Shown in pieces: positions 3,729-25,276 of a stretch of 41,456 nucleotides of DNA. The notes under the pieces were generated by a model. It made no database searches. It saw only the letters and a program-made list of their open reading frames with translations, and had not been told where the DNA came from. This DNA comes from Clostridia bacterium (GTDB lineage Bacteria; Bacillota; Clostridia; Oscillospirales; CAG-272). Where the stretch lies: NCBI GenBank assembly GCA_017631855.1, contig JAGBSP010000048.1:1-41456 (forward strand), written 5' to 3'. Position 1 is the stretch's first letter. The number at the start of each line of letters is the position of its first letter. A program made the translations under genes and the position numbers.

Positions 3729-5069
3729 ATGGGTAGTGACAGTATACCTTTATGGATTATCTTTTTTATTTGTGTGATTGGAGGCGCATATTTTGCTGCC
3801 ACCGAAAGCTCTTTTTCGGCGGTGAACAAAATCAAGATCAAGGCGCTTGCTGATGACGGTAATAAAAGAGCCCAAGGTGTGATGTATATTCTCAACAAGT
3901 TTGACAAGGCGCTGACCACCCTTCTTTTGGGAAATAACGTGACCAAGATTGCGGGAGCTGCCGTATTTACGATTCTTGCCACGGATATTTTTCGTGAGAA
4001 GCTTGGCAAATCCGACGATTTTCTGGATTCCTTTGCCTTTTCAATGATCTGCTCTGTGATGAGTACAGTAATCATTTTCCTCTTTAGCGAAATGATTCCC
4101 AAAAGCTTTGCTAATGACCGCAGTGAGTCGGTATCCTTGTTTTTTGAAGGATCTCTTCGATTCCTGATGAAGATCTTAAAGCCATTTTCGGCATTCTTCG
4201 GTCTGATTTCTGATTTTGCATCGAAATTGTTCTCGAAAAAGGAGGCAGAGCCTTCTATTACCGAGGACGAGCTGACCGAGATTATCGAGACGGCAGAGGA
4301 AGAGGGAATCGTGGACGAGGAGCAAAGCGATATGCTTAAATCGGCGTTGGAATTTGCTAAGACTACGGTGGGAGATATTATGACGATGGAGAAGGATATT
4401 GACTTTATCCGTGTCAATGCCACTCCCGCGGAAATTCTGGAGACAATCCGAAATACCAATCACTCGCGTTTGCCTGTCAAGGCGGAGAATTCCGAGCGCG
4501 TCGTGGGTATTTTGCGTACTCGAACTTATTTGATCGAGCATAAACGAAATCCCAACCTTCGGTTGCGGAGTGTGATGAAGCCGCCGTATCTCGTTCGCAA
4601 GGACGCGAAGATTGACGATCTTCTCACTGATATGAGACAGCACAAGCTGCAGGTTGCTATGGTTCTTGACGATCAGAAGAAGGTGATCGGTCTTGTGACC
4701 ATCGAGGACATCCTTGAGGAGCTGGTTGGTGAAATCTTCGACGAGGAAGACGTGGTTGACCAGAATTTCCAGACGCTTGGCGGAAACAAATACATGGTGA
4801 ATACGCATATGCTGGTTGGTACCGCTTACGAGCGGATGGGTCTGGGACCCGCTCCAAGAAAGATTGCAACAAAGCCTTTGCTTTCTTTTATTTTGGAAAC
4901 GTTGGGGCATTTGCCGGAGGAGGAAGAGTCCTTCCTTTACGAAAACATTAGATATACGGCAAAAACTGTGATAAACGGACGGCTGACTGAGGTGACCGTT
5001 CATATCCTTGACGAGGACGATCTTGCTGCGCTGAGGGCGGCAGAGTCCGATGAGGAGGTGACGGCATGA
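3729..5069 (+). CDS. CNNM/CorC-type membrane protein with CBS domains (copy 1)
   Basis: The 446-aa protein has the HlyC/CorC (TlyC) family layout. The N-terminal transmembrane CNNM domain covers about residues 5-150, with the signature AATESSFSAVNKIKIKALA near the start. A CBS pair spans about residues 205-335 (VGDIMTMEKDID, TIEDILEELVGEIFDEED), followed by a CorC_HlyC domain. Family members move or sense Mg2+, Co2+ or Na+; the 'hemolysin' label is historical. AAGGAG at 3712-3717 sets the start. The stop overlaps the next start by 4 bases (ATGA), so the pair is translationally coupled. The exact substrate is unknown. Confidence 0.88.
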   Translation: MGSDSIPLWIIFFICVIGGAYFAATESSFSAVNKIKIKALADDGNKRAQGVMYILNKFDKALTTLLLGNNVTKIAGAAVFTILATDIFREKLGKSDDFLDSFAFSMICSVMSTVIIFLFSEMIPKSFANDRSESVSLFFEGSLRFLMKILKPFSAFFGLISDFASKLFSKKEAEPSITEDELTEIIETAEEEGIVDEEQSDMLKSALEFAKTTVGDIMTMEKDIDFIRVNATPAEILETIRNTNHSRLPVKAENSERVVGILRTRTYLIEHKRNPNLRLRSVMKPPYLVRKDAKIDDLLTDMRQHKLQVAMVLDDQKKVIGLVTIEDILEELVGEIFDEEDVVDQNFQTLGGNKYMVNTHMLVGTAYERMGLGPAPRKIATKPLLSFILETLGHLPEEEESFLYENIRYTAKTVINGRLTEVTVHILDEDDLAALRAAESDEEVTA

Positions 5070-6379
5070 CCTTTGCGGCACACTTTGCAAATATGTGGTG
5101 GGCATACGTGGTTATTTTTGGAATGATCTGTCTGTCCGCATACTTCTCAGCTTCTGAGATTGCCTTTAACACTGCCAACAAGATGCGTTTGCGGAAGGCG
5201 TCCGAAGGCGGATGCTGTACGGCAAGGATTGCTTATCACATTTGCGATAAGTTTACTACCTCGCTGTCCGCAATTCTGATCGGCAACAACCTTGCCAATA
5301 TTGCGGTTTCTACCTGCACGACGTTGATCGTGATGGATCTGTTTCGGAATAACGTTGCCCTCGCTTCCACGATTTCAACGATTCTGATTACGGTTGTAAT
5401 CCTGATTTTTGGAGAAATCGTGCCGAAGGTCCTTTCCAAGCAACACGCCGATACTGTGGTTCGTATTATTGCGATTCCTACCCGTATCCTCACTGTGATT
5501 CTCAGTCCTTTCGTCTTTATTGTTATGGCGATTCTGTTTGTTTTAAGAAAGATCTGGGGAAGTGACCACAAGGACGATGAGCCTACCGTGACCGAAGAAG
5601 AGCTGGTTTCCATCATTGACACCGTCGAGGAAGAGGGTGTTATCAACGAGGGACAGGGTGAACTGCTTCAGTCTACGCTAGAGTTCAGCGATACGACGAT
5701 TGAGAAGATCATGACCCCCCGTATTGACGTGACGGCTATTAACGTGGATGACGAGCCGGAAAAGATTGTGCAGCTCTTGTCCGATACGACTCAGTTTTCC
5801 CGCTTGCCCGTCTACGAGGATAGCATCGATAATGTTGTAGGTATTCTGTCTTTGACGCGATATTATAAGGCAACGCTGGACGAAGTCAATCCTGATATTC
5901 GTTCGATGCTTCTCAAGCCCTGCAAGCTTCATAAGACCATGAAGCTTCCTGCTGCACTCACCAAGCTGAGAGATGGTAAGATGCATCTTGCTATCGTTAT
6001 CGACGAGTACGGCGGAACCCTTGGTATCATTACGATGGAGGATATTCTGGAAGAGCTGGTTGGCGATATCTGGGATGATACCGACGTGATTATTACCGAG
6101 TGCCTTTCCACAGGAGAGAACACCTACGAAGTGTTGGGCGATATGAATATCGATGATTTCTTTGAGGAGATTGATTTTGTGAAGCCGGAAACCTTCTCTT
6201 GCGAGTATTCTACGATGGGAGGATGGGCAATCGAGATGCTTGAGGCTGATCCTCACGTGGGCGATAGCTTCCGATATGAAAATATTTTCGTCATTGTAGC
6301 ACAAATGGACGAAGAGCGAGTGACGAAGCTGACTGTTCTGGTAGAGGAAAAGCAAGACGAAGAAGCGGAAATTGATTAA
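5066..6379 (+). CDS. CNNM/CorC-type membrane protein with CBS domains (copy 2)
   Basis: The 437-aa paralogue of the preceding gene has the same order of domains. The CNNM signature is SASEIAFNTANKMRLRKA; the CBS pair contains IEKIMTPRIDVTAI, RLPVYEDSIDNVVGIL and IDEYGGTLGIITMEDILEELVG; the C-terminus is a CorC_HlyC domain. It starts at the ATGA overlap with copy 1, with GAGGAGGTG at 5053-5060 inside the upstream gene. Its CBS motifs match the family consensus better than copy 1 (EYGG present, where copy 1 has LDDQKK). This may mean that one subunit binds nucleotide and the other does not (inference). A heteromeric partner of copy 1 is likely. Confidence 0.88.
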   Translation: MTFAAHFANMWWAYVVIFGMICLSAYFSASEIAFNTANKMRLRKASEGGCCTARIAYHICDKFTTSLSAILIGNNLANIAVSTCTTLIVMDLFRNNVALASTISTILITVVILIFGEIVPKVLSKQHADTVVRIIAIPTRILTVILSPFVFIVMAILFVLRKIWGSDHKDDEPTVTEEELVSIIDTVEEEGVINEGQGELLQSTLEFSDTTIEKIMTPRIDVTAINVDDEPEKIVQLLSDTTQFSRLPVYEDSIDNVVGILSLTRYYKATLDEVNPDIRSMLLKPCKLHKTMKLPAALTKLRDGKMHLAIVIDEYGGTLGIITMEDILEELVGDIWDDTDVIITECLSTGENTYEVLGDMNIDDFFEEIDFVKPETFSCEYSTMGGWAIEMLEADPHVGDSFRYENIFVIVAQMDEERVTKLTVLVEEKQDEEAEID

Positions 6380-19541: not shown

Positions 19542-20295
19542 GCTTTTTGAGCTTTGCAAAGATCACGTGGAAAATTAAAATGCAGAAAATATAGAAAACT
19601 GCGCCGAAGATTAGGTCGGAAAGATAATACAGGCACATAATAAGTGCCTCGGTAACATCCTCCGGAGCGCCGTAGCCAAGATCAAAAATTAGGCGGGAAA
19701 GCACCTTCGATACCGAGAAAAGAATAGAAATTTTAAGAAGACAGCGTTGCAAAGGGTTCTTCTTGGTGAAAAATGTTTGAAAAGGATAAAAATCCTCGGT
19801 GGAAAGATCCACCTTCACGTCATTTCCAAACAGCGTTTTTGCTTTGTTTTTTACCGTACACTGACGGTAGTATTTTTTTGCGGTGGAAGAGGCAAGAACC
19901 ATAGAAATTAACAAAAGCAAAAGATCAACGATCCAATAAAAAATATTGAAGAAAAGATCATTGTAAAGAGAGAGGGTTTGATACATAATCAAAATTGCCA
20001 AGAGGTCAAACAAACGCCGCAGAAGCAAAAGACCGCAGAGAAGAAGAATGAGGCGAAAAACTATGTTTTTTGCGGTACGGAAGAAAATCGCGTATGCAAG
20101 GATGGAGAGGGCGATTGCCCACGCAAAAATTTCACTTAGATCACGGAGCACGTCAAGAAGTTCGGGAAGTGCCGATTGGAAGAGAATAATATCATTATTG
20201 CAAGCGAGATAGGCAAGTGTCAGTCCAAAGGATAATAGCACGAAAATTCCGCCGCCCCCGACGAGCATCATAAGGTAAAGCCATTTAGTTTTCAT
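19516..20295 (-). CDS. Multi-pass membrane protein of unknown function
   Basis: The 259-aa protein has about six hydrophobic segments: two near the N-terminus (WLYLMMLVGGGGIFVLLSF; IFAWAIALSILAYAIFF), two to three in the middle and one to two at the end. A soluble basic loop lies around residues 143-185 (KKYYRQCTVKNKAKTLFG). No motif names a family. GGGAG precedes the ATG. The C-terminus overlaps the opposite gene by 8 bp in a palindrome, so both proteins end LDDVN. Confidence 0.78.
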   Translation of the reverse strand: MKTKWLYLMMLVGGGGIFVLLSFGLTLAYLACNNDIILFQSALPELLDVLRDLSEIFAWAIALSILAYAIFFRTAKNIVFRLILLLCGLLLLRRLFDLLAILIMYQTLSLYNDLFFNIFYWIVDLLLLLISMVLASSTAKKYYRQCTVKNKAKTLFGNDVKVDLSTEDFYPFQTFFTKKNPLQRCLLKISILFSVSKVLSRLIFDLGYGAPEDVTEALIMCLYYLSDLIFGAVFYIFCILIFHVIFAKLKKQKNLDDVN

Positions 20296-20333
20296 AGGAT
20301 GATCTCCCGATAATTTTTAGTATATTCTTTTAT

Positions 20334-20339
20334 ATTATA
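20334..20339 (-). promoter_or_regulatory. -10 element of the membrane protein gene
   Basis: On the minus strand, TG-A-TATAAT is an extended -10. The -35 region (CACCAT) is weak. Confidence 0.45.
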
Positions 20340-20401
20340 TCATAGCTTGCAGAAAAATGGTGATTGATTTGTAAATATTTTTATTTTTTTAGCTTTTACA
20401 C

Positions 20402-20435
20402 AAAAAAGGATATGCGAAAATCGCATATCCTTTTT
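20402..20435 (-). terminator. Terminator of CNNM/CBS copy 3
   Basis: AAAAAGGATATGCG pairs with CGCATATCCTTTTT around a 5-nt loop. Its minus-strand T-run follows directly, and it lies 6 bp past the stop codon. Confidence 0.9.
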
Positions 20436-20440
20436 CTCAT

Positions 20441-21775
20441 TTAAGTCTGAATAGGTTCGCTTTTTGCGTTTTTTTCATTCTCCTCTACGCCATCCTCACT
20501 CTCAATTTCCTTGAGCGTAACGATCGCGCACTCTACCTTGTGCTCCTGAACGTCCAGAATTTGAATGTCAAGAAGATCGGTGGAAAGCTCAAAGGTGGAG
20601 CCGTCCTCGGGGATCGATCCGTAAAGACCCATTACAAATCCGCTAAAGGTATCCGAGTCGGCGTCGGCAAGCTCAATGCCGAGTGCATCCTCGACGTCGG
20701 CAATCGAAACAGAGCCGTTGATTTGCCAACGATGGTCTTCGAGTGTGACGATCGGTTCTACCGTGTCCTCTTCTTCCTCATCGATTTCGGAAAATTCACC
20801 AACCAGACATTCTACAAGGTCAGTAAAGGTAATAATGCCGTGTACTCCGCCATATTCATCCAGAACGATTGCGATCGATTCTTTCTTTTGCTTCATATTA
20901 CGGAAGAGAACATCTGCCTTGACGTTTTCAGGAACGAAATAGGTAGGTTTGACTGCGAGTTCAAAAATTGCTTCCTTGGTTTTTTCTTCCAAACGGAAAT
21001 ACTCACGCGCGTCGAGAATGCCGATGATATCGTCGACGTCTTCGCCGTAAATGGGATAGCGCGAAAATCGGCTGTTATTGATGATTGCCTCCCATTCTTC
21101 AATCGAAGCATCTTTTGCGAGCATCGTCATTTCGGTACGGTGTGTTGCGATAGCAGCTGCGGAGATATCGTCAAAGTCGAAAATGTTTTCGATCAGCTCC
21201 TTGTTGTATTCATCGATGCTTCCGTCCTCATGTGCTTCATCTACCAGAGTGAGAAGCTCACCCTCGGTGACGGCTTCTTCCTCCGCGGGCTTGAAGATCT
21301 TCGTCAGCAACTTCTTCCAAAGCATAAAGAACCAGTTGATCGGTGTCAGAATTCCCGTGATAAAGCGAAGAACGGGAGCAACAGCCATCGAAAAACGTTC
21401 CGGCTTTTCCTTGGCAAGGCTCTTGGGCGAGATCTCACCGAAGATCAGAACAACGACCGTCGTGACGGCAGTAGCAATGGCAGAGGCATATCCTGCAATC
21501 GACGCTTCGCGCAGTAGGTCAATACACCAGATCGTTGCAATCGAAGACAGCGAAATGTTTACGATATTGTTTCCTACCAGAATGGTAGAAAGCAATTTGT
21601 TGTAATTTTCCGACATTTTCAAGACCAGCGCGGCGCGCTTGTTTCCCTCAGAAGCAAGATTTTTCATCTTAGTGTGATTAAACGAGGTGAAGGCGGTTTC
21701 GCTGGCAGAAAAGAAAGCGGAAAACACAAGGCATACGAGCATTAAAACAAGTTTGAGTAGACTCCCGTCAGGCAT
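20441..21775 (-). CDS. CNNM/CorC-type membrane protein with CBS domains (copy 3)
   Basis: The 444-aa protein starts at 21775 (AAAGGAG 6 nt upstream; a longer in-frame extension runs into a terminator hairpin). The CNNM domain signature is FSASETAFTSFNHTKMKNLA, and the CBS pair contains SRYPIYGEDVDDIIGIL and LDEYGGVHGIITFTDLVECLVG. A CorC_HlyC domain ends at about residue 410, followed by an acidic tail. It is a third paralogue of the genes at 3729 and 5066. Unlike them it is transcribed alone from a 300-nt leader containing a leader peptide and two terminator-like hairpins, which suggests regulation by premature termination. Confidence 0.88.
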   Translation of the reverse strand: MPDGSLLKLVLMLVCLVFSAFFSASETAFTSFNHTKMKNLASEGNKRAALVLKMSENYNKLLSTILVGNNIVNISLSSIATIWCIDLLREASIAGYASAIATAVTTVVVLIFGEISPKSLAKEKPERFSMAVAPVLRFITGILTPINWFFMLWKKLLTKIFKPAEEEAVTEGELLTLVDEAHEDGSIDEYNKELIENIFDFDDISAAAIATHRTEMTMLAKDASIEEWEAIINNSRFSRYPIYGEDVDDIIGILDAREYFRLEEKTKEAIFELAVKPTYFVPENVKADVLFRNMKQKKESIAIVLDEYGGVHGIITFTDLVECLVGEFSEIDEEEEDTVEPIVTLEDHRWQINGSVSIADVEDALGIELADADSDTFSGFVMGLYGSIPEDGSTFELSTDLLDIQILDVQEHKVECAIVTLKEIESEDGVEENEKNAKSEPIQT

Positions 21776-21787
21776 ATAATCTCCTTT

Positions 21788-21820
21788 AAAAAAATCTGTC
21801 CGAGGACTTTGTCGGTACAG
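21788..21820 (-). terminator. Second terminator-like hairpin just upstream of CNNM copy 3
   Basis: On the minus strand, the arms 21812-21820 and 21796-21803 (CTGT-a-CCGA with TCGGACAG) are followed by a seven-T run at 21788-21794, which abuts the ribosome binding site. It could attenuate transcription or hide the ribosome binding site. Confidence 0.65.
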
Positions 21821-21859
21821 GGAATGAGTGTGGAAAAAATCAGAAATCAAAATAAACGC

Positions 21860-21902
21860 AAAAAAGCATAGCCTGAGCCCATTTCAGGGACGCAGGTTAT
21901 GC
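21860..21902 (-). terminator. First attenuator hairpin in the leader of CNNM copy 3
   Basis: Minus-strand stem with three blocks, GCATA/TATGC, CCTG/CAGG and CCC/GGG, followed by six Ts (21865-21860). The stop codon of the leader peptide (21884-21886) lies in its loop region, so a ribosome finishing the peptide would open the 5' arm. Confidence 0.75.
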
Positions 21903-21973
21903 GTATTCAGAAACATATTTACATTGAAAAAATATGTACTTCGACAGTTACCGTCGGTATTGCCGTTGTCCAC
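21884..21973 (-). CDS. Leader peptide, 29 aa, Asn-rich
   Basis: Read from GTG 21973 with AAGGAG at 21989-21984 (spacing 10 nt). The peptide begins MDNGNTDGNC, continues RSTYFFNVNM and ends FLNTHNLRP. It contains eight Asn, no Trp and only two Leu. Its last codons and stop lie in the terminator hairpin at 21866-21902. No other start codon lies in frame between the promoter and this GTG. It looks like a sensor leader peptide that couples translation to termination, but no conserved stalling motif was recognised. Confidence 0.5.
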   Translation of the reverse strand: MDNGNTDGNCRSTYFFNVNMFLNTHNLRP

Positions 21974-22085
21974 TTCTGATTTTCTCCTTACGAATTCAGG
22001 ACGTGTTCGTCCGTTTTGATTTTGCTGTAGAGAAGACAGGTGCTTTTCTTGTACTCTGTGTTCTTTTTTACAACATAGTATCAAT

Positions 22086-22113
22086 ATTATAGCATAAAAA
22101 ATTTTTTTGTCAA
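22086..22113 (-). promoter_or_regulatory. Promoter of the CNNM copy 3 leader
   Basis: Minus strand: TTGACA (22113-22108), 16-bp spacer and TATAAT (22091-22086) with an extended TG-C. The predicted start near 22079 gives a 300-nt untranslated leader. Confidence 0.78.
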
Positions 22114-22149
22114 TAGATTTTTGGAAATATTTTATAAGGAAGAACAATG

Positions 22150-22187
22150 AAAACCGGAGAATTGCTAAAGGGCAATTCTCCGGTTTT
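22150..22187. terminator. Bidirectional terminator near the TSCPD gene
   Basis: AAAACCGGAGAATTGC pairs with GCAATTCTCCGGTTTT around a short loop. On the minus strand it ends the nadE-to-TSCPD operon, directly after the stop codon. Confidence 0.85.
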
Positions 22188-22442
22188 TTATGCGTTTTTT
22201 TTGAGTTCGGTTAATGCTTTTGCCAACTGATCTGGGCAAGAGGTCGCTTTAAATCCGCAACGGATGCCCGAAAGACGTTCGATGGCTTCGTCGACCGTCA
22301 TTCCAACGATCAACGCCGAAACACCCTGCGTGTTTCCTGCGCAACCGCCGATGAATTTGACGGATACGATGCGATCACCGTCGGTTTCAATGTCGATCTG
22401 ACGGGAGCATACGCCCTTGGTGCGGTAAGAAATTTGTTTCAT
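22188..22442 (-). CDS. TSCPD-domain protein
   Basis: The 84-aa protein matches the small TSCPD family (TIGR03905 type). The name-giving TSCPDQLAKAL is at residues 68-78, and an upstream conserved GGCAGNTQGVSALIVGM is followed by RCGFKATSCPD. The same domain occurs at the C-terminus of class II ribonucleotide reductases. The free-standing form has no defined reaction. TAGGAG precedes the ATG. It is the last gene of an operon with nadE and a PheA-like gene. Confidence 0.9.
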   Translation of the reverse strand: MKQISYRTKGVCSRQIDIETDGDRIVSVKFIGGCAGNTQGVSALIVGMTVDEAIERLSGIRCGFKATSCPDQLAKALTELKKNA

Positions 22443-22463
22443 AAGTTCTCCTAGGTGATTTTG

Positions 22464-23342
22464 TTAATGATTCAAAATGGGGTAAAGACCGATCGCGGTA
22501 TAGCGAGGATGCTCCGAAGACAAATAGAGATCGAAGGCATACGCCATTGCGCGGGGAAGTCGAAAGGTGAAATAAATGCGATGCGCTCCGTCGTCGTAAA
22601 GGATCGGAAGAGAGTCGATTTTGATCGGGGTTGCTTCAAAGATCGGAGCAACTCGGAAAATATCGTAGGGGAACTCTGCGGATTCTGCGGAAACACAATA
22701 TTCCAAATTCCATTCGGTGTTTTTTGGGATTCGATGTGGAAGACGCTTGCCTACCAAGGCGTAACGAACGGTATCGGGAGAATCGTCGTGCTCGACGGTA
22801 CAGGTGGCACAGATTTTTAATTCGTAGCGGTCGAGCATCGAGTAAAAACCAAAAAGTCTTCCGCTTTCCGTGTTTTCAATTGGAAGAATACAAAATTCGC
22901 AAAGATTGTCAAAGACCTCCTCGCAAGCATCGGAAAAGGAGGAAAGGAATTCGGCTTTCGCTCCCTGAACAAAGGGATCAAAGATAGCAAATGCTTCTTC
23001 ATTGTAGCGATTTCGTACCAAAGCGATCCTTCCGTGCGCACCCGATTGCGTGCTTTCGTCATCGCGGAAGCTTGTTTGTGTGATCATCGTTTTTTGATGT
23101 GGAGCAGATTTTGCCAGACGTGCGAAGAATTTTGCCCGATCCTCGGAGGTGAATGTGCTGTTTGACGGGAAGTTCGAAGAAAAACGGGCATAAAGCTCAA
23201 GGGGATCGGATTCTTTTTCGGCGAGCAGTGCGTTGATGCAAAGATCCAGAGAAAGCTCTCTCTGTCGCTCGGAAATTGCGCTCCGTTCGGAAAAAATGCG
23301 AATGTTTTCCTTGAAAATCTGTTGTTCCTTTGTCAGATCCAT
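22464..23342 (-). CDS. Divergent prephenate dehydratase/ACT-like protein
   Basis: The 292-aa protein starts 2 bp after the nadE stop (ATG 23342; a longer start at 23375 would overlap nadE). The middle carries a recognisable prephenate dehydratase core: CILPIENTESGRLFGFYSML (151-170), then TVRYALVGK (191-199). This aligns with the catalytic TRFxxI strand, but the Thr-Arg pair is disrupted. Residues 225-290 match an ACT regulatory domain (IKIDSLPI for the usual KIESRP, and AIGLYPI for VLGSYP). The N-terminal helical part could be a worn chorismate-mutase-like segment. The family assignment is from motifs only, and activity is doubtful. Confidence 0.62.
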   Translation of the reverse strand: MDLTKEQQIFKENIRIFSERSAISERQRELSLDLCINALLAEKESDPLELYARFSSNFPSNSTFTSEDRAKFFARLAKSAPHQKTMITQTSFRDDESTQSGAHGRIALVRNRYNEEAFAIFDPFVQGAKAEFLSSFSDACEEVFDNLCEFCILPIENTESGRLFGFYSMLDRYELKICATCTVEHDDSPDTVRYALVGKRLPHRIPKNTEWNLEYCVSAESAEFPYDIFRVAPIFEATPIKIDSLPILYDDGAHRIYFTFRLPRAMAYAFDLYLSSEHPRYTAIGLYPILNH

Positions 23343-23344
23343 AG

Positions 23345-25276
23345 TTATCTCAAGTCTTCCGTGATTTTTATCCAAGCGGTTGCCATCGCATCACTCGGCA
23401 TCTGCCAATCTCCGCGCGGAGAAAATCCGACCGAGCCGATCTTCGGCGCATCGGGCAGACAAGAACGCTTGAACTGTTGTGCAAAGAAACGGCGGACGAA
23501 GTTTTTGAGCCATTTGAGAAGTACCTCGTCGCTGTATTTTCCGTCAAACGCGATCTTCGCCAAGCGGTAAAGCTTATCGGGAGAATCGCCAAAGCGGAGC
23601 ATATGATAAAGATAAAAGTCGTGAATTTCGTAAGGACCGACGAGATCCTCGGTTTTTTGCGCAATGTTGCCGTGCTCGTCCGAGGGAAGAAGCTCGGGGC
23701 TGACGGGTGTGTCGAGAATATCGCGAAGGACCTCGGCAAGACGGGAAGCACCGTTTTTGTCTGCGTTGTCGGCGCAGTAGGCGATTACGTGGCGAATGAG
23801 TGTCTTCGGTACGTCGGCGTTGACACCGTACATCGACATATGGTCGCCGTTATACGTTGCCCAACCGAGTGCCAGTTCGGAAAGGTCGCCCGTACCTACC
23901 ACCAAGCCGTTTTCACGGTTGGCAATATCCATCAGGAGCTGAGTACGCTCTCTTGCTTGTGCATTTTCATAAACGACACTATGATCGGCTTCATTGTGTC
24001 CAAGATCGGCAAAGTGCTGACGGACAGACGCGCTAATGTCGATACATTCCAGCCCCGTACCGAGTTCTACGCAGAGAATTTCCGCATTCGATCTGGTTCT
24101 TTTCGTTGTACCGAAGCAGGGCATCGTAATACCAAGTACGTCGGAGTGAGGTCGTCCGAGCAGATCCATTGCTTTCGTGGCAACGAGGATGGCAAGCGTG
24201 GAATCAAGACCACCCGAAATTCCAATGACGCATTTCTTTGCGTAAGAGCGGACAACGCGTTGAGCTAAGCCTTTGGCTTGAATTGTCAGAATGGTTTCGG
24301 CACGGCGGGCAAGCTCCTCCTTGTTACTCGGAATAAAGGGAGCAGAATCGATCTTGCGGGTCAATTCTGTTTCCGTGTACTCGACCGAGAAACGATTGTT
24401 TTTGATATTCGCTGAGAGAACAGAGGTAAAGGTGTTGATGCGCTTGCGTTCTCCCTCGATATGAGCAAGGTCAAGTTCGGTCACAAGAAGTGCTTCGCCA
24501 TCCGCAAATGCGGTGCGTTCCGCAACAATTTTGCCAAGCTGAGCGATCATGGAATGTCCGCCGAACACCAGATCGGTCGTCGATTCTCCGTCACCGCAAT
24601 CTGCATAGAGGTAACCGCAAAGTGTGCGTGCCGATTGAGACTCAACCAGCATACGGCGGCGGGCATCCTTTCCAATAATTTCGGGAGAGGCGGAAAGGTT
24701 GGCAATGATCAGCGCGCCAGCCTCGGCAAGTGTGGTCGAGGGCGGCGTTGCCGTCCAAAGATCCTCGCAGATTTCAACACCAAAGCGAAATGGTGTAAAG
24801 TTGCTACAGGAAAAGATTTGCTTGGTGCCGAAAGGCACCGATTGACCAAATAACTCGATCTCTACCGTGTCACCTTCGTATACCGAAAAATATCTACCTT
24901 CAGAAAATTCGCTGTAATTCGGCAGATGTGTTTTGGGAACAATTCCCAAAATTTGTCCATTTTGACAAATTGCGGCAGAATTATAAAGTTTATCATTGAC
25001 AACGAGGGGAAAACCGATTATACTTATAGTAGAAGAATTCTTGGTTTTTGCCAAAAAGTTTTCCAAGGCAAATTTTGCCGCATCAAGAAGTACACTCGAA
25101 AAGAAAAGATCCGAGCATGTATAGCCTGTCAGGCAGAGTTCGGGGAAAACGAGAAGCTTTACGCCAAGTGCATCTGCATCTTTGTGCAGACGCAAAATTT
25201 CTTCGAGATTGGCGGACGGATCGGCAAGCGTAACCTTGGGAGTTGCTGTACCGACCTTAATAAAACCATGTTTCAT
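23345..25276 (-). CDS. nadE: Glutamine-dependent NAD+ synthetase
   Basis: The 643-aa protein makes NAD+ from deamido-NAD+, ATP and glutamine in the cytosol. Residues 1-290 are a nitrilase-type glutaminase with the catalytic triad E46 (FPELCLTGY), K115 (KTHLPNYSEF) and C170 (EICEDLW). Residues 320-643 are the synthetase with the PP-loop SGGLDS at 354-359 and GTGDLSELALGWATYNGDHM later. The start at 25276 has AAAGGAA upstream, rather than the earlier in-frame ATG at 25327. It is divergent from pncB, which supplies the precursor pathway, and leads an operon with the PheA-like and TSCPD genes. Confidence 0.95.
   Translation of the reverse strand: MKHGFIKVGTATPKVTLADPSANLEEILRLHKDADALGVKLLVFPELCLTGYTCSDLFFSSVLLDAAKFALENFLAKTKNSSTISIIGFPLVVNDKLYNSAAICQNGQILGIVPKTHLPNYSEFSEGRYFSVYEGDTVEIELFGQSVPFGTKQIFSCSNFTPFRFGVEICEDLWTATPPSTTLAEAGALIIANLSASPEIIGKDARRRMLVESQSARTLCGYLYADCGDGESTTDLVFGGHSMIAQLGKIVAERTAFADGEALLVTELDLAHIEGERKRINTFTSVLSANIKNNRFSVEYTETELTRKIDSAPFIPSNKEELARRAETILTIQAKGLAQRVVRSYAKKCVIGISGGLDSTLAILVATKAMDLLGRPHSDVLGITMPCFGTTKRTRSNAEILCVELGTGLECIDISASVRQHFADLGHNEADHSVVYENAQARERTQLLMDIANRENGLVVGTGDLSELALGWATYNGDHMSMYGVNADVPKTLIRHVIAYCADNADKNGASRLAEVLRDILDTPVSPELLPSDEHGNIAQKTEDLVGPYEIHDFYLYHMLRFGDSPDKLYRLAKIAFDGKYSDEVLLKWLKNFVRRFFAQQFKRSCLPDAPKIGSVGFSPRGDWQMPSDAMATAWIKITEDLR

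Follow-up and report, generated by a model that had tools for sequence, protein, structure and literature searches.

An acidic leader ORF and an intrinsic terminator upstream of cation-exporter genes in Clostridia: a candidate translation-gated attenuator

Upstream of a putative cation-exporter gene of a Clostridia bacterium, we found a leader belonging to a family which, judged from sequence comparison, appears to be conserved across many Clostridia and many clostridial families. Its members have an acidic coding segment, an intrinsic terminator at a regular distance from it and an exporter gene downstream, and no conserved aptamer was found in them. We lean towards reading the leader as a translation-gated transcription attenuator, in which ribosomes short of Mg2+ would drop off while translating the acidic segment and the exporter would be ON at high Mg2+. 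The leader had been noticed in an initial annotation of this DNA; that observation proved to be real and wider than first seen.

The window, meaning the whole stretch of DNA that was analysed, comprises 41,456 nt (contig JAGBSP010000048.1). The features of the leader and its surroundings are as follows.

22149..22188, no strand: bidirectional terminator of 16-18 pairs, between the leader promoter and the upstream TSCPD-domain gene
22086..22113, minus strand: sigma-70-type leader promoter, TTGACA-16-TATAAT with TG before the -10, 12/12 matches
21984..21989, minus strand: leader ribosome binding site (RBS) AAGGAG, read from the sequence
21884..21973, minus strand: leader ORF of 29 aa with a GTG start; residues 2-12 (acidic in relatives) are the conserved part
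21860..21902, minus strand: intrinsic terminator, hairpin 1 plus T6 tract, with the leader stop codon within the loop
21788..21820, minus strand: hairpin 2 with T7, adjoining the gene's RBS; lineage-specific, in the window and genome G020 only
20441..21775, minus strand: regulated gene, a CNNM + CBS + CorC_HlyC protein (CorC/PaeA-like cation exporter family)

The initial annotation had described a promoter, an RBS, a GTG-started ORF of 29 codons and two T-tailed hairpins, all of which are present on the minus strand at the positions listed. The promoter (22113-22086) ranks first among 10 promoter-like sites in 20000-24000, a region in which 4.6 are expected from shuffles. The ORF runs from the GTG at 21973 to a TGA at 21884 and encodes VDNGNTDGNCRSTYFFNVNMFLNTHNLRP. 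Hairpin 1 (21902-21866, with T6 at 21865-21860) has a folding energy of -18.5 kcal/mol and a z-score of -3.99, equalled by 0/200 shuffles, and sequence and fold together bear out the proposal of a six-T terminator that carries the leader stop codon in its loop. For hairpin 2 (21820-21796, followed by one A and T7 to 21788), the values are -9.3 kcal/mol and -2.74, with 1/200 shuffles as low. The product of 20441-21775 exceeds the Pfam cut-offs for CNNM (172.6 bits), CBS (41.8) and CorC_HlyC (55.5); PaeA, GldE and CorC models are among its NCBIfam matches, every one of them below cut-off. On its upstream side, the leader adjoins a gene for a TSCPD-domain protein. The window holds two more CNNM genes, in tandem at 3729-5069 and 5066-6379 on the plus strand, neither of which has an acidic leader.

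Two side observations concern the RNA around hairpin 1. A stretch past the hairpin (21847-21832, minus strand) is complementary over 16 bp to the leader RBS and start codon (21987-21972), and this pairing could mask the leader RBS in read-through transcripts. In addition, most family members have a G just after hairpin 1's T-tract, as TTTTTTGCG or TTTTTGTG (21865-21857, minus strand, in the window; alignment A4), which exceeds the needs of a plain terminator and is perhaps a pause signal.

Within the genus, the leader accompanies its gene consistently. A protein search of 59 related genomes found this leader type at 19/19 same-genus CNNM orthologues (at least 62% identity, the window's own included). 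When the leader alone was used as a DNA query, 25/98 genomes matched at E <= 0.001, 24 of them within the genus (own included); the 25th match (G055) covers just 25 bases at the leader end. The combination of an acidic mini-ORF and then a terminator was found in 32/69 CNNM upstream regions, of which 29 are real by inspection and three spurious by eye (L167, L172, L193), and in 2/69 reverse-strand controls. These 69 regions come from 73 CNNM places, leaving out three contig-end fragments and G024:C265, which has the leader. At L025, L027 and L030, each from a different genome, the leader lies one gene upstream of CNNM, and an AI-2E-family permease gene stands between the two; the L025 copy matches Pfam AI-2E_transport with 172.7 bits.

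The two-terminator design proposed in the initial annotation did not hold up in this comparison. Hairpin 2 is recognisable by eye in 2/19 orthologues (the window and G020), and we dropped it as a conserved part; a script allowing no bulge found it in 0/19, the window included. By eye, L006, L010-L014 and L018 share another small hairpin, with CGGAAAUA at its end, which stands ahead of the gene's RBS where the window has hairpin 2.

Beyond the genus, we searched with a hairpin pattern and with two covariance models, R1 and R2, built from leaders. R1 matched 55/394 genomes of the order at E <= 0.01, in 39/168 genera. R2 matched 37/391 genomes of the class and 10/398 of the phylum, with one convincing genome outside the class (L226). 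The pattern scan gave 37 loci: 21 known genus members, five new true or likely members (L073, L084, which is cut off, L085, L095 and L102) and 11 apparent chance matches. The collection started from 59 detector matches, of which two were dropped as spurious by eye (L011 on the minus strand and the second match of L062). Four filter-missed leaders were added by hand (L008, L010, L018, L144), with later additions of twenty by position and four by sequence (L208, L222, L130, L131), and removing duplicates left 82 distinct leaders.

Downstream of these 82 leaders lie CNNM genes (62), P-type cation ATPase genes (12), AI-2E-family permease genes (3) or too little DNA to tell (5, four of which had been fetched for a CNNM gene there). 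Thus all 77 leaders with readable downstream DNA precede a gene of one of these three kinds, some having been fetched through CNNM similarity. For the L102 ATPase, the highest-ranking NCBIfam models are of Ca2+ type, with scores under their cut-offs, and the ATPase match at L142 begins at an odd offset, perhaps from a frameshift. Of 67 RNA-model loci inspected (65 distinct places, since L129/L198 and L132/L200 are each counted twice), 53 combine an acidic ORF with a downstream exporter gene, 7 have neither, and 7 are discordant. The association has a Fisher p of 1.4e-5, though the models contain the ORF and the table is therefore not fully blind. The discordant loci are L144, with one acidic residue and CNNM present; L197, at a contig end; and L223, L227, L229, L230 and L232, which are weak matches with a chance acidic ORF and no exporter. 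We regard the leader-gene linkage as strong but not blind, as the set was gathered partly via CNNM similarity and partly via ORF-containing models.

A promoter is a regular part of these leaders as well. Among the 78 with 170 nt of upstream DNA, 69 score at least 10/12, against 9/78 shuffled. The distance from promoter to start codon has a median of 39 nt and ranges from 28 to 115 nt; at about 112 nt, the window comes close to the upper limit.

The terminator shows the clearest conservation at the level of base pairing. An alignment was made of 53 of the first 61 leaders, picked mostly with a terminator filter. In it, 10/10 pairs had changed on both sides and 95.1% of 530 cells were paired, a level that 0/500 shuffles reached; sliding the alignment destroys the signal. 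Compared across relatives, as the initial annotation had proposed, the leader keeps its reading frame at the N-terminus, and hairpin 1 keeps its stem through compensatory changes.

The position of the ORF relative to the hairpin is equally regular. We measured it in 80/82 leaders, L208 and L222 giving no terminator in the script. The T-tract lies 101.7 +/- 8.8 nt from the start codon and the 5' end of the hairpin 63 +/- 8.7 nt from it. In 80/80 leaders, the ORF stays open to within 15 nt of the hairpin, although composition predicts 19.5 premature stops, so that a ribosome finishing the peptide reaches the 5' arm of the terminator. The other frames reach the hairpin without a stop in 45/80 (frame +1) and 3/80 (frame +2), and the openness of frame +1 counts against the attenuator reading. 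The ORF ends at or in the terminator in all 80, the position occupied in pyrBI/ampC-like attenuators, and a ribosome there is predicted to block the hairpin.

The encoded peptides begin with small, polar, acidic segments, for example MDDADSSDADR, MDSDDSEC and MEGDSCEDDNC; further leader peptides are VDNGDSDGNCRST, MDDADSSDADRS, MDSDSSDDYDNC, MDSDDSECNAEF, MEGDSCEDDNCN and MDADDDDANGNN. Residue 2 is Asp in 72/82 and Glu in 3/82. Residues 2-12 contain 3.5 acidic residues on average over the 82 leaders, most of which were chosen by an acidity filter, and have no proline in 71/82. Across 57 leaders their acidic fraction is 0.32, a figure owed partly to selection because the filter required two acidic residues; it falls to 0.05 from residue 14 onward, and the other two frames give 0.08 and 0.02. 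Acidity is judged more fairly from the 19 orthologues, which a protein-homology search supplied, and from the 67-locus table of ORFs and exporters. Acidity has also been retained through exchange of Asp and Glu (L160-L162, L204, L209, L214, L217, L220).

Few members are less acidic than the window peptide, in which only two of residues 2-12 are acidic. A close acidic pair, with the two residues 0-1 apart, occurs in 66/82 leaders (32.8 expected from shuffled peptides), and the window is one of the 16/82 without it. According to the available part of the published account, EttA-dependence in E. coli correlated with acidic residues 0-1 apart, and di-acidic residues alone were insufficient. The window leader may be a weakened member of the family. 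Its peptide had been described as Asn-rich, a trait that lost its meaning on comparison: relatives are Asp/Glu-rich at residues 2-12, and codons 14-18 have no codon-position signal.

That contrast between the two parts of the peptide was found in 31 disjoint pairs of leaders, chosen by nucleotide distance (at most 12 differences over codons 2-12) with no regard to codon position. Counted by codon position (1/2/3), the differences numbered 48/41/83 over codons 2-12 and 88/84/93 over codons 14-18, and cut-offs of 6, 9 and 14 differences gave the same picture. Pairs chosen by peptide identity did so too, with a bias toward third-position changes. In 71 gap-free pairs of genus leaders, the counts were 95/62/167, up to just past a CGA codon. 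Because the third-position excess is present in codons 2-12 and absent from codons 14-18, protein-level selection appears to be confined to the N-terminus. In the MAFFT alignments A2-A4, the VDNCDST subgroup has codons out of place, and the ORF counts were taken from the ORFs themselves.

Protein-level selection on the N-terminal peptide would also be expected if the acidic micropeptide were the product itself, for instance one that binds a metal or a transporter, with the terminator only setting the ratio of peptide to exporter. We consider this quite improbable, in view of peptide lengths from 14 to more than 50 aa with a C-terminal half free to vary, the lack of protein-level signal in codons 14-18 and the tight ORF-hairpin geometry. 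A fixed point of ribosome arrest near the stop codon was rejected on the same unconstrained codons 14-18.

Codon choice is conserved as well. A CGA codon follows after 7-11 codons and is in frame in 25/25 genus leaders. Arg is encoded by CGA in 42/46 cases, compared with 9% in reference genes, and Ser by AGY in 114/120, compared with 30%. This exceeds what selection on the peptide requires and counts against a peptide-only explanation. The rare codons may slow the ribosome on the acidic segment, and common descent could explain part of the bias. As a further observation by eye, ATPase-type leaders of several families (L102, L136-L139, L141, L143, L151, L152) are near-identical over the first ~30 nt of the ORF, synonymous sites included, which suggests a codon- or RNA-level constraint.

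Codon choice kept beyond the amino acids could also point to a metal-binding RNA aptamer as the sensor, with the ORF incidental, and the whole window leader RNA does fold with a z-score of -5.64. Several lines of evidence make such a riboswitch very improbable. At gathering thresholds, Rfam gave one tRNA in the whole window and no M-box (RF00380), yybP-ykoY, T-box or other cis-regulator, and nothing in 21700-22220; at E up to 10, every match was below cut-off and none was a cation riboswitch, the lowest E-values belonging to miRNA models that score the 22149-22188 hairpin. M-box matches were found in 0/30 genomes of the genus. RNAalifold consensus folding of 29 leaders yielded the terminator hairpin and no conserved structure upstream of it. 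The ORF region has a mean z of +0.26 against single-base shuffles (n=80, 3 below -2), and the third-position excess is limited to codons 2-12. The long helix of the window RNA is present only in the window (16 bp) and its nearest relative, G020 (13 bp); in the other 17 orthologues, the longest helices of 7-12 bp are within the shuffle range, and we rejected the helix as a family element.

The frequency of Asp at position 2 (72/82) recalls classical amino-acid attenuation, with Asp codons sensing charged Asp-tRNA. This is the least probable of the explanations we weighed. Glu substitutes for Asp in some members, the downstream genes encode transporters and are not Asp-related, and a ribosome stalled at Asp codons would free the terminator, the opposite of the usual starvation logic. 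A conserved antiterminator, a feature of classical amino-acid attenuators, was not found in the 29-leader consensus. Upstream sequence was also inspected by eye for complementarity to the 5' arm of hairpin 1; a GACGC/GCGUC match in ATPase-type leaders was dropped as a candidate antiterminator, as it is not kept in L102, L143 and L152.

The translation-gated attenuator that we favour would work as follows. RNA polymerase would transcribe a short ORF whose first 12 codons specify the small, polar, acidic segment, followed by the intrinsic terminator about 100 nt past the start codon. A ribosome that gets through the segment would reach or enter the hairpin's 5' arm and keep the hairpin from folding, and the cation-exporter gene would be transcribed. 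At low Mg2+, ribosomes would abort on the segment, the hairpin would fold and transcription would stop. Sensing would reside in the stability of the ribosome itself: the exporter would be ON when Mg2+ is high, or divalent cations are in excess, and OFF when it is low, a direction that suits exporters. Abortion at low Mg2+ is a known effect of acidic N-termini, termed intrinsic ribosome destabilisation (IRD) and exemplified by MgtL. For Bacillus subtilis, transcription is reported not to be coupled to translation, which would weaken a translation-gated switch if the same were true of Clostridia. The initial annotation's suggestion that translation decides passage of hairpin 1 is kept in its leader-peptide attenuator anatomy, while the second terminator and the Asn-richness have fallen away.

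That ribosomes abort on this segment, that Mg2+ is what they respond to and that high levels turn the exporter ON are inferences. Of the signals that the initial annotation had named (Mg2+, an amino acid or ribosome state), Mg2+ or another divalent cation would seem to fit best, judging from the downstream genes and from published acidic leader peptides. The same anatomy might instead report on Ca2+, Mn2+ or pH, or on the general state of the ribosomes as set by antibiotics or ribosome supply, with exporters tuned accordingly. We regard this as possible though doubtful. A leader of this kind would react to whatever stress makes ribosomes unstable, and 12/82 leaders precede P-type ATPases, that of L102 resembling Ca2+-type models below cut-offs. 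However, 62/82 precede CNNM genes, and of the bacterial relatives studied so far CorC handles Mg2+ and PaeA polyamines (PMC12421838), and the published precedent for an acidic leader, as far as the accessible text goes, is for Mg2+.

The odds seem to us about even that these leaders are widespread clostridial cis-regulators in which the ribosome serves as a Mg2+ sensor that switches cation exporters ON. They would then mirror MgtL, in a genus that yielded no M-box. Destabilisation of ribosomes by acidic nascent chains as a Mg2+ signal is established in a few enterobacterial cases, where it raises importer expression. If our reading is true, the same weakness of the ribosome has been recruited with opposite sign as a metal sensor, gating exporters through intrinsic terminators. 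The family's natural variants, dozens in number, could be used to find out which arrangements of acidic residues destabilise ribosomes, and a testable mode of regulation would be at hand for cation-exporter genes in uncultured gut Clostridia. It also advises caution, as strong leader hairpins before metal-transport genes need not mean riboswitches. In mainly open-access literature, supplements aside, we found no description of an acidic leader before CNNM or P-type ATPase genes in Clostridia, PMC8632094 included.

Several known systems share parts of this design. M-box (RF00380) and yybP-ykoY riboswitches are 5' leaders controlling Mg2+ and Mn2+ transport genes, but they are RNA aptamers, and the window has no match to them. 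The pyrBI and ampC attenuators follow the same terminator-blocking logic, in that the arriving ribosome itself obstructs the intrinsic terminator and no antiterminator hairpin is involved; their signal is UTP or growth rate, not an effect of the nascent peptide on the ribosome. With an acidic mini-ORF (first ~20 codons) before a cation transporter gene, the clostridial leaders have the arrangement of IRD-type regulators, the window peptide being a weak case.

Among these, mgtL of mgtA in E. coli and Salmonella, in the available parts of its published descriptions, is likewise a short ORF with acidic residues just after the start, before a Mg2+ transporter gene, and the outcome of its translation decides transcription elongation, as is proposed here. 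It differs in combining Pro with acidic residues (EPDP) and in its Rho-dependent terminator, where the clostridial leaders have few prolines and an intrinsic terminator with a U-tract, and in turning an importer ON at low Mg2+, where the genes here encode exporters and the predicted direction is opposite. For mgtQ, the ORF between mgtC and mgtB of Salmonella, the accessible text reports that Asp2 and Glu5 codons destabilise ribosomes and control a Mg2+ transporter; it acts on translation through RBS release, unlike the transcriptional control via an intrinsic terminator proposed here. A further case is that of corC (ybeX) and yoaL-mgpA of Salmonella and E. coli, CorC-domain genes with higher expression at high Mg2+, in the case of mgpA when pH is neutral or alkaline (PMC12421838, available part). 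In the same text, the IRD of corC lies inside the gene's own N-terminal region, yoaL is a leader ORF overlapping the upstream region of its gene, and none of these is described with a terminator. Taken together, the clostridial leader departs from MgtL in two features, the Rho-dependent terminator and the Pro-acidic motif, and probably resembles MgtL and MgtQ in its working, through a putative abortion of ribosomes on the acidic segment.
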